Origin: Mycobacterium sp. DL440
GTDB lineage: Bacteria > Actinomycetota > Actinomycetes > Mycobacteriales > Mycobacteriaceae
Length of the DNA: 64,000 bases
Assembly (NCBI RefSeq): GCF_011745145.1
Contig: NZ_CP050191.1
Coordinates: 2,681,054 to 2,745,053, forward strand
Reading direction: 5' to 3'
Below the pieces are notes generated by a model. The model made no database searches. It was not told the DNA's origin and saw only the letters and a list, made by a program, of their open reading frames with translations. Positions 48,391-53,424 of this stretch are shown here, piece after piece (position 1 is the first letter of the stretch; each line of letters begins with the position of its first letter). The position numbers were made by a program, and so were the translations under genes.

Positions 48391-52137
<3,747 letters not shown>

Positions 52138-52142
52138 GTGCA

Positions 52143-52250
52143 CTCCTTCCGTAACGGAAGGCGTCCTTGACTCTGCCGAGCGTGGCGGATACCGAGGGGG
52201 ATCCAGTCCCCCCCAGACAACCGTTGCAACGCCTCTCGACCAGAAGAGTC
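52143..52250 (-). ncRNA. probable S-adenosylhomocysteine (SAH) riboswitch in the metH leader
   Basis: Read on the minus strand, P1 is GACTCT (52250-52245) with AGAGTC (52174-52169) plus CGAG with CTCG. The core CGAGAGGCGTTGCAACGG and later CCGCCACGCTCGG follow the SAH riboswitch consensus (GAGGAGCGCUGCRACGG ... CCGCCAGGCUCGG) with one change in CCAGG. Inside P2, GGGGGA and TCCCCC form a hairpin. The pseudoknot pairs AGGCGT (52234-52229) with ACGCCT (52164-52159). That second strand overlaps the hairpin CCTTCCG-TTA-CGGAAGG (52161-52145), which hides the Shine-Dalgarno site. Ligand binding would free it, so SAH should turn metH on. Confidence 0.82.
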
Positions 52251-52252
52251 TA

Positions 52253-52444
52253 CGTCGCCACCCGATCGACGTCTGGACGCCCAACGCGTCGCTGCGATCG
52301 ACCCGACCTGCTTGGCGACGCGTGCCCCTGACCAGATTGCAGCCGAACGTATTTCGTGTCGACTGCCCCGTCACCCACCACTACGCGCTGCGACCAGGTG
52401 TCCAGCAGGTCGGTGTCGTAGGCAGACTTGTCGGCGGCAGCCAT
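52253..52444 (-). pseudogene. 5' fossil of an M. tuberculosis-type metH
   Basis: The frame opens at ATG 52444 and reads MAAADKSAYDTDLLD, then [11 protein letters not shown]. The M. tuberculosis MetH start, from memory, is MTAADKHLYDTDLLD, SQRVMVGDGAM. Identity covers about the first 28 codons (52361-52444) and then stops abruptly; the rest of the frame is unrelated and ends at a TAG abutting the riboswitch. The intact metH downstream is of a different type. This therefore looks like the left-over beginning of a displaced native metH, in its native place next to the PAC2 gene. Confidence 0.75.
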
Positions 52445-52450
52445 ACAAAC

Positions 52451-52456
52451 AGGATA
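52451..52456 (-). promoter_or_regulatory. probable metH promoter -10 element
   Basis: TATCCT on the minus strand stands 6 bases upstream of the fossil ATG (52444), a spacing typical of leaderless or near-leaderless mycobacterial transcripts. It would be the original metH promoter. Transcription from it would now run through the fossil and the riboswitch into the new metH. No clear -35 element is seen. Confidence 0.45.
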
Positions 52457-52545
52457 GTCCGTCTATCAAATGCCGCTGTTCGGCGCCGCGGCGACCCGCA
52501 CGTACAACGGGCTCATCGGCACCATCCAAGGCTTAGGCTGAAGGT

Positions 52546-53424
52546 GTGACACCGTCGTATCCGAACGCCGGCCGGCGTATGAACCTGCCCGATTTGAAGG
52601 ACGCCACCGTCGTGGCGGCTTTCGAGGGCTGGAATGACGCCGGCGACGCGGCCAGTGACGCGCTGGACCACCTGGATGCGATCTGGGAAGCCCAACCGAT
52701 CGTCGAGATCGACGACGAGTCGTACTACGACTATCAGGTGAACCGCCCGGTGATTCGTCAGGTCGACGGCGTCACCCGCGAACTCGTGTGGCCCTCGATG
52801 CGGATCTCGCACTGCCGCCCCCCGGGCAGCAACCGCGACGTGGTGCTGATGCACGGCGTCGAACCCAACATGCGCTGGCGCACCTTCTGCGCCGAGTTGC
52901 TGGCCATCGCCGACAAACTGAACGTGCAGACCGTGGTGATCCTGGGCGCGCTGCTGGCCGACACCCCACACACCAGGCCGGTGCCGGTATCGGGCTCGGC
53001 GTATTCCGCCGAGTCGGCGAAGGTCTTCGGGCTGGAGGAAACCCGCTACGAAGGTCCGACCGGGATCGCCGGGGTGTTCCAGGACGCCTGCGTCCAGGCC
53101 GGTATCCCAGCGGTGACGTTCTGGGCGGCGGTTCCGCACTACGTGTCGCAGCCGCCCAGCCCCAAGGCGACGGTGGCCCTGTTGCGCCGGGTCGAGGACG
53201 TGCTGGACGTCGAGGTGCCATTGGCCGATCTGCCCGCCGCCGCCGAGGAGTGGGAGCAGGCCGTCTCCGAGATGACGGCCGAGGACGAGGAGATCGCCGA
53301 ATACGTCGCCTCCTTGGAGGAGCGCGGCGACGCCGAGGTCGACATGAACGAGGCACTCGGCAAGATCGACGGCGACGCGCTGGCCGCTGAGTTCGAGCGC
53401 TACCTGCGTAGGCGCGGACGTTAG
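52546..53424 (+). CDS. PAC2-family protein (Rv2125-like)
   Basis: This 292-aa protein has the PAC2 (proteasome assembly chaperone-like) fold: VVAAFEGWNDAGDAASDAL near the start, then VVLMHGVEPNMRW, GALLADTPHTRPVPV and AVPHYVSQPPSPKA. M. tuberculosis Rv2125 has the same length and position, divergent from metH. The function of the bacterial members is unsettled. The GTG at 52546 is the start. Confidence 0.9.
   Translation: MTPSYPNAGRRMNLPDLKDATVVAAFEGWNDAGDAASDALDHLDAIWEAQPIVEIDDESYYDYQVNRPVIRQVDGVTRELVWPSMRISHCRPPGSNRDVVLMHGVEPNMRWRTFCAELLAIADKLNVQTVVILGALLADTPHTRPVPVSGSAYSAESAKVFGLEETRYEGPTGIAGVFQDACVQAGIPAVTFWAAVPHYVSQPPSPKATVALLRRVEDVLDVEVPLADLPAAAEEWEQAVSEMTAEDEEIAEYVASLEERGDAEVDMNEALGKIDGDALAAEFERYLRRRGR

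Follow-up and report, generated by a model that had tools for sequence, protein, structure and literature searches.

Organization of the metH leader

The window analyzed here, a stretch of 64,000 nucleotides from Mycobacterium sp. DL440, carries on its minus strand the gene for a conventional cobalamin-dependent methionine synthase (metH, 48391-52137, 1248 amino acids, GTG start), whose product scores 2132 bits against NCBIfam NF007024 and 1717 bits against TIGR02082, far over the cut-off, with Pfam domains in agreement. The metH leader lies between this start codon and a divergent PAC2-family gene on the plus strand (52546-53424; Pfam PAC2, 221.7 bits), which serves as a marker of the locus and adjoins metH in 45 of the 45 genus loci compared; by the description in PMC4428469, it is the ML1306/Rv2125-type neighbor.

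Minus-strand positions 52240-52137 comprise, in succession, an aptamer resembling the SAH riboswitch, a hairpin opposing the Shine-Dalgarno site (anti-Shine-Dalgarno hairpin), and the start codon of metH; the coordinates were derived from the window sequence and an alignment of the genus leaders. Read 5' to 3' on this strand, the leader begins with a relic of the 5' end of a different, MetHa-type metH, detected by tblastn (52352-52444, 31 codons, ATG at 52444), followed by TAGACT (52247-52252), a -10 box of the TANNNT type that is near-invariant in 31 genus leaders and recurs in relatives and from whose spacing a transcription start is predicted at 52239-52241. The 5' strand of P1, GTCGAG (52235-52240), is followed by the 5' strand of the pseudoknot, AGGCGT (52229-52234), by TGCAA (52224-52228), in which T, G, and C are invariant in the diverse alignment described below, and by the P2 hairpin (52186-52223), the tip of which varies between species and 4 of whose 7 pairs have changed on both sides. 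Then come CCACG (52181-52185), the 3' strand of P1, CTCGGC (52175-52180), a short linker, GG (52165-52166, positions 46 and 47 of the aptamer), and the 3' strand of the pseudoknot, ACGCCT (52159-52164). The two P1 strands were placed from the alignment to RF01057 and from pair counts, CCACG and GG from the alignment to RF01057, and the pseudoknot strands from their pairing in 52 diverse sequences. The hairpin CCTTCCG-TTA-CGGAAGG (52145-52161) shares its first 3 letters with the pseudoknot and is followed by the Shine-Dalgarno region GGAAGGAG (52143-52150) and the start codon, the latter two features, like the hairpin, being read from the sequence.

Much of this had been proposed in an earlier note on the same DNA. 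The core CGAGAGGCGTTGCAACGG and the second strand CCGCCACGCTCGG that it described can be read on the minus strand, as can the pseudoknot AGGCGT/ACGCCT, in which 3 pairs differ from the Rfam consensus with pairing kept, the perfect 7-bp hairpin over the Shine-Dalgarno site, the CCT common to hairpin and pseudoknot, and metH directly downstream, with its GTG at 52137. However, the P1 that it gave, GACTCT/AGAGTC, was misassigned, since GACT is part of the TAGACT box, and the P1 of the aptamer is formed by 52240-52235 with 52180-52175. The outer pairing was rejected as an aptamer helix: none of its pairs has changed on both strands, 3 of the 6 vary solely through loss of pairing, and it overlaps the -10 box. 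The change of CCAGG to CCACG is present as stated but is not a lone difference, being paired with a second change, of AACG to AAGG.

Similarity to the Rfam SAH family and occurrence in Actinomycetes

Comparison of positions 51900-52500 with Rfam gave a match to RF01057 of 26.6 bits (E = 0.0072 for 601 bases and 4227 families), so that the covariance-model check proposed earlier came out favorably in E-value but below the gathering score of 37; no Rfam family reaches its gathering score anywhere in the whole window. The SAM/SAH riboswitch RF01727 has no match at E ≤ 1 in 51900-52500. In the complete 6.38-Mb genome, the metH element is the best RF01057 match (E = 0.018), the next scoring 21.2 and 20.3 bits, and these other sub-threshold matches were discarded, only the metH element being matched at E ≤ 0.1 by the genus model described below. 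Folding energy was likewise set aside as evidence, the stability of the single sequence not being unusual (z −0.66). Matches to RF01057 at E ≤ 1 occur in 226 of 248 genomes of the genus (Mycobacterium), none of the 248 reaching the gathering score, but such matches are unspecific taken alone because 4 of 14 control genomes have them too. The best 30 genus loci (L007-L036) lie directly upstream of metH in 30 of 30 cases. The genus is taken to include Mycolicibacterium; over 120 bases, five of its loci are the same as named records, among them M. setense, M. paraense, and M. iranicum. The gathering score is reached by 6 of 18 other actinobacterial loci, and the actinobacterial branch therefore touches the known family.

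A covariance model (R1) was built from an alignment (A2) of 30 of the 31 genus leaders, locus L016 being a repeat of L015. At E ≤ 0.01, this genus model detects the element in 222 of the 248 Mycobacterium genomes, the best E-values among the matches listed not exceeding about 6e-13, and at the level of the order it matches 92 of 298 genomes, in 26 of 76 genera, at E ≤ 0.1. There were 76 order-level matches outside the genus, 75 of which were fetched, the other (L066, before metH) being already in the set. Target genes were assigned by the highest-ranking tblastn match lying no more than ~1.6 kb away, with NCBIfam or Pfam applied to one member each; at L161 the distance to ahcY is ~1 kb, and the metH match of L078 is confined to a late piece. 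By these assignments, the 75 matches precede metH (34), ahcY (24), metK (2), adenosine deaminase (2), a gene for a MOSC-domain protein (3), or one for a methyltransferase (2), with none named at 8, among them L122, where a full element sits at the edge of a contig. The aptamer core is present in 68 of the 75.

A second model (R2), made from 52 diverse sequences, matches 67 of 345 genomes at class level, in 17 of 126 genera, and 22 of these genomes belong to the genus of the window; 29 class-level loci precede metH (27), ahcY (1), and a methyltransferase gene (1). In a draw across the phylum, 9 of 296 genomes match, 5 of them already known. The other 4, from other classes, were rejected, 3 having neither core nor target and the remaining one (L307) being a partial look-alike, which lies beside a methyltransferase-like frame and in which no pseudoknot strand was seen. 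A pattern scan of named genomes gave at least 120 loci; among the 120 matches listed, the targets are metH (83), ahcY (30), adenosine deaminase (2), methyltransferase (1), and MOSC (1), and 3 stretches end within 141 bases. By record titles, 119 of these 120 are from Actinomycetota, and they include Mycobacterium/Mycolicibacterium, Amycolatopsis, Actinoplanes, Micromonospora, Frankia, Kribbella, Nocardioides, Streptosporangium, and others. The three sets overlap (7 identical stretches between order and pattern, 5 between class and pattern, and 2 between order and class), and their counts are not additive. The earlier view of the class as mainly proteobacterial was thus too narrow, many Actinomycetes carrying the SAH element. 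One pattern match, L222, comes from a metagenome-assembled genome labeled Acidobacteria and has the actinobacterial form of the element, reflecting either mis-binning or transfer.

Several of the rarer targets merit individual mention. The adenosine deaminase loci are L086 (the same record as L171), L111, and L143; this enzyme removes the adenosine that is released by SAH hydrolysis. Elements stand before genes for SAM-dependent methyltransferases at L067 (identical with L193, from Nocardia carnea, and with L286) and L130, and before MOSC-domain protein genes at L114, L126, L131, and one of L222-L261 (Pfam was run on L131); the link of the MOSC-domain protein to SAH is not obvious. The metK loci are L102 and L105; for Proteobacteria, PMC4239095 states that SAH riboswitches do not control metK. 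At L285, L191, and L068-L072, a metH 73-89% identical to the mycobacterial gene occurs with the element in other families or orders, and the sequences make a joint horizontal transfer of element and conventional metH possible.

Covariation, putative expression platform, and predicted ligand pocket

Pairing was evaluated in an alignment of 52 sequences (A4), made from sequence only and comprising 45 of 67 order loci after removal of near-copies and 7 sequences from the genus and family; L129, L134, L136, and L138-L141, which have no target and no core (partial in L134), had been left out beforehand, as had L131. Over P1, P2, and the pseudoknot together, 98.3% of cells are paired, and sliding the partner strands lowers pairing to 28-44%. 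Cells changed on both sides number 62 as compared with a mean of 16.3 after shuffling, with none of 500 shuffles as high, although these counts come from related sequences that are not independent. P1 and P2 are paired in 97.1 and 98.5% of cells, respectively, both with double changes, and the pseudoknot in 99.4%, with a double change between C-G and U-A. This change is in its last pair, which is C-G in 42 rows, U-A in 9, and unpaired in 1. The same pair was followed in 184 metH loci: U-A (82) and U-G (1) are found where MetH is ≥84% identical to that of the window, U-A (9), C-G (4), and U-G (1) where it is 70-83% identical, and C-G (82) or a broken C with U (5 of 87) where it is <60% identical. 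Both states therefore occur within one identity class. The genus by itself says little about the pseudoknot, because 30 of the 31 leaders have it in identical form, the other having a U-G pair.

The expression platform is similarly recurrent. Of 250 elements, 244 have a hairpin of 5 or more pairs that begins within the last 3 letters of the 3' strand of the pseudoknot, and in 240 of these 244, exactly three letters are common to the two structures; with downstream letters shuffled (20 rounds), the platform appears in 41-66 of 250. Among the 244 hairpins, 235 have a purine-rich 3' arm resembling a Shine-Dalgarno sequence and 235 have a start codon close behind. After removal of near-copies, the platform is present in 47 of 52. 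For the window, the energies are −7.8 kcal/mol for the anti-Shine-Dalgarno hairpin, −1.0 kcal/mol for the hairpin deprived of the common letters, and −8.3 kcal/mol for the pseudoknot duplex. Since the two structures have letters in common, they are mutually exclusive, and binding of the ligand should turn translation on, which is the direction of response in known SAH riboswitches.

In the proposed mechanism, transcription would start at, or a few bases from, P1. At low SAH, CCUUCCG would pair with CGGAAGG and hide the Shine-Dalgarno sequence, keeping the rate of MetH synthesis low, whereas accumulating SAH would stabilize P1, P2, and the pseudoknot AGGCGU/ACGCCU. The pseudoknot would then take CCU from the hairpin, leaving a weak 3-bp stem and a free ribosome site, and the additional MetH would remethylate the homocysteine released from SAH, a compound that inhibits methyltransferases. 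The metH leader is very probably an actinobacterial variant of the SAH riboswitch that raises MetH by freeing the Shine-Dalgarno site; SAH as the ligand, activation as the response, and the position of the start site are what we infer from the sequences.

The letters expected to surround the ligand are largely those of the known class. In a crystal structure of the SAH riboswitch, SAH is stacked between C16 and A29, G15 binds its adenine, and C46 contacts its homocysteine tail (PMC7057144). The equivalents of G15 (52227), C16 (52226), and A29 (52183) are invariant in A4. The numbering of these contact letters was matched through the consensus and, presumably, corresponds to that of the crystal construct. 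The Rfam consensus has CCAGG with CAACGG, and the actinobacterial elements have CCACG with AAGG, so that position 30 (52182 in the window) is C where the consensus has G, and position 46 (52166) is G where it has C. C30 and G46 occur in 146 of 147 elements found by the models; the exception is L131, in which a second candidate strand has G46. Loci found by the pattern are informative for position 46, the promoter, the platform, and the targets, position 30 being demanded by the pattern itself. The only proteobacterial element obtained, from the leader of a plasmid-borne ahcY of Burkholderia glumae, has CCAGG with AACGG (G30/C46); a search of viral contigs for further elements for this comparison found none. 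Probably, G30 and C46 form a tertiary pair next to the ligand, which has been inverted to C30-G46 in actinobacteria. Because the swap is one event between phyla, viewed against the consensus and one named sequence, this proposal is based on conservation on both sides rather than on repeated covariation. The coupled change provides a directly testable prediction on the ligand pocket.

This swap is also a reason for considering a ligand other than SAH, such as SAM, adenosine, or another adenosyl compound, bound by the same fold with altered specificity. The near-universal C30/G46 of the model-found elements, as opposed to the G/C of the Rfam consensus and B. glumae, the contact that C46 makes with the tail of the ligand in the known structure (PMC7057144), and the presence of metK behind 2 of the 75 order-level matches are in keeping with such a change, but G15, C16, and A29 are unchanged and the recurrent targets include ahcY, the product of which makes adenosine from SAH, and adenosine deaminase, which removes adenosine, so that we consider another ligand decidedly unlikely. 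The hairpin, which is stable by itself and covers the Shine-Dalgarno site, could in principle control metH alone, as a thermosensor or as constitutive damping, with the upstream fold sensing nothing; this is very improbable given that the aptamer core upstream varies less than the tip of the hairpin, shows covariation, and is found again in front of ahcY, metK, and adenosine deaminase genes. That a GC-rich leader merely happens to fit the SAH model, as the sub-threshold Rfam score and the matches that 4 of the 14 controls also give at E ≤ 1 might indicate, has a negligible probability in view of the distribution, target genes, and covariation of the element and of the position of all of the best 30 genus loci before metH.

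The remaining alternative concerns the transcript rather than the sensor. A longer message driven from the promoter of the MetHa relic would place the element within a long leader, in which case translation of the relic frame might affect it; the length of the leader would change, but the aptamer would not. A -10-like TATCCT just upstream of 52444 and the relic start codon are visible in the window. However, no more than 18 of the 60 genus loci show such a relic, and a TANNNT box stands directly before the aptamer in relatives, 9-12 bases upstream of CGAG in 40 of 68 order loci and 8-13 bases upstream of it in 91 of the 120 pattern matches listed; a control window placed 30 bases farther upstream contains the box in none of these 120. 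These boxes indicate that the transcript probably begins at P1, and the long leader appears unlikely. The earlier note held that a start downstream of about 52250 would leave P1 out of the transcript; the predicted start is indeed there, at about 52241-52239, but this does not speak against the element, since that is also where the actual P1 begins. Scans for sigma-70 promoters and terminators found none and were given no weight, since the promoter scan misses some mycobacterial promoters and the lack of a terminator fits translational control. A riboswitch of the SAH type on metH that frees the Shine-Dalgarno site, as first proposed in that note, remains by far the best reading of the sequence, with ligand and direction expected from the comparisons above.

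Two types of MetH at one locus and relationship to known systems

Young et al. (2015, PMC4428469) have already described an exchange of metH type at the site of ML1306 (PAC2). According to that paper, M. tuberculosis, M. leprae, M. kansasii, and other species carry MetHa, most rapid growers and the M. avium complex carry the conventional enzyme, as does a laboratory strain of M. smegmatis, and fragments of MetHa are present in M. marinum and a Frankia; the main text of the paper contains no occurrence of SAH or adenosylhomocysteine. Our comparison included 14 of the 26 genus genomes that have no element, and in 14 of 14 there is a metH that is only 32-36% identical to that of the window (MetHa type) and adjoins the same PAC2 gene (78.8-90.2% identical). 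In these genomes, the MetHa start codon is very close to a -10-like box, for which reason MetHa looks near-leaderless, and their MetHa loci have no SAH match at gathering level. Conversely, 14 of 14 element-bearing genomes have a single metH match, of the window type, and both controls have only the other type. In the genomes compared, conventional MetH comes with the SAH element and MetHa comes without it; this association and the relics described below are what the present work adds to the published exchange. M. tuberculosis, a MetHa carrier by PMC4428469, should be without SAH control.

Traces of the exchange are present in the leaders. When a MetHa protein was compared by tblastn with the whole window, the relic at 52444-52352 was found with 61% identity over 31 amino acids (E = 1.3e-5). 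At E < 0.05, 18 of 60 genus loci (15 of 54 genomes once six duplicates are removed) show a decayed MetHa N terminus in the stretch that separates PAC2 from the element, the weakest of the 18 being individually uncertain; at the same threshold, a reversed query gave 1 and 20 shuffled queries gave 0-3. At these sites, a regulated metH seems to have displaced an unregulated MetHa. In a nucleotide tree of PAC2 (69 rows), well supported branches force at least 4 changes of metH type, although this is a tree of one gene, and PAC2 may itself move. A broader interpretation, in which Actinomycetes possess their own branch of the SAH riboswitch, marked by C30-G46 and a rewired pseudoknot, that travels with metH as a cassette and in mycobacteria has repeatedly traded places, at one site, with an unregulated MetHa that has no leader, seems to us evenly balanced between being right and wrong. 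If it is correct, species of one genus differ in whether their methionine synthase answers to SAH. Enzyme constants have been said to be what "might provide a functional rationale" for MetH switching (PMC4428469), and a swap that changes both enzyme and regulation would be another possible functional reason.

We judge the metH leader element to be a real SAH-type riboswitch and a new, widespread variant of the known class, the sequences pointing strongly to SAH as its ligand and to activation as its response. It would add an SAH-sensing RNA control point in a well studied genus, one missed by the Rfam cut-off in 248 of 248 genomes, and a broader Rfam model or a lower cut-off could take in the actinobacterial branch. 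The known class, RF01057, was reportedly described by Wang et al. in 2008 and Edwards et al. in 2010 (PDB 3NPQ). The element resembles RF01057 in P1, P2, the pseudoknot, the UGCAA and CCA letters, and the targets ahcY and metH, and the known class also has an anti-Shine-Dalgarno platform. It differs in the pseudoknot (AGGCGY/RCGCCU here as opposed to GAGCGC/GCGCUC), in C30/G46 in place of G30/C46, and in the P2 tip, which is often longer in mycobacteria.

A survey of 255 genomes that included nine Mycobacteriaceae places the SAH riboswitch among moderately spread motifs, and mycobacteria are not named in the part of it available to us (PMC3766115). In the open literature, to the extent that it was accessible, we found no SAH riboswitch named in Mycobacterium or on actinobacterial metH or ahcY, and an earlier mention is possible. 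PMC4239095 gives ahcY and metF as the proteobacterial targets, with metH in Comamonadaceae, and places the SAM/SAH riboswitch RF01727, which can bind SAH too (PMC2864571), only before metK in Rhodobacterales. The MetH switching of Young et al. (PMC4428469) involves the same locus and the same two MetH types as here. In the other mycobacterial methionine synthase, metE, RNA control is known from the cobalamin riboswitch before the gene (Warner et al. 2007, as cited in PMC4428469); there, B12 turns metE off, whereas the SAH-type element would turn metH on.
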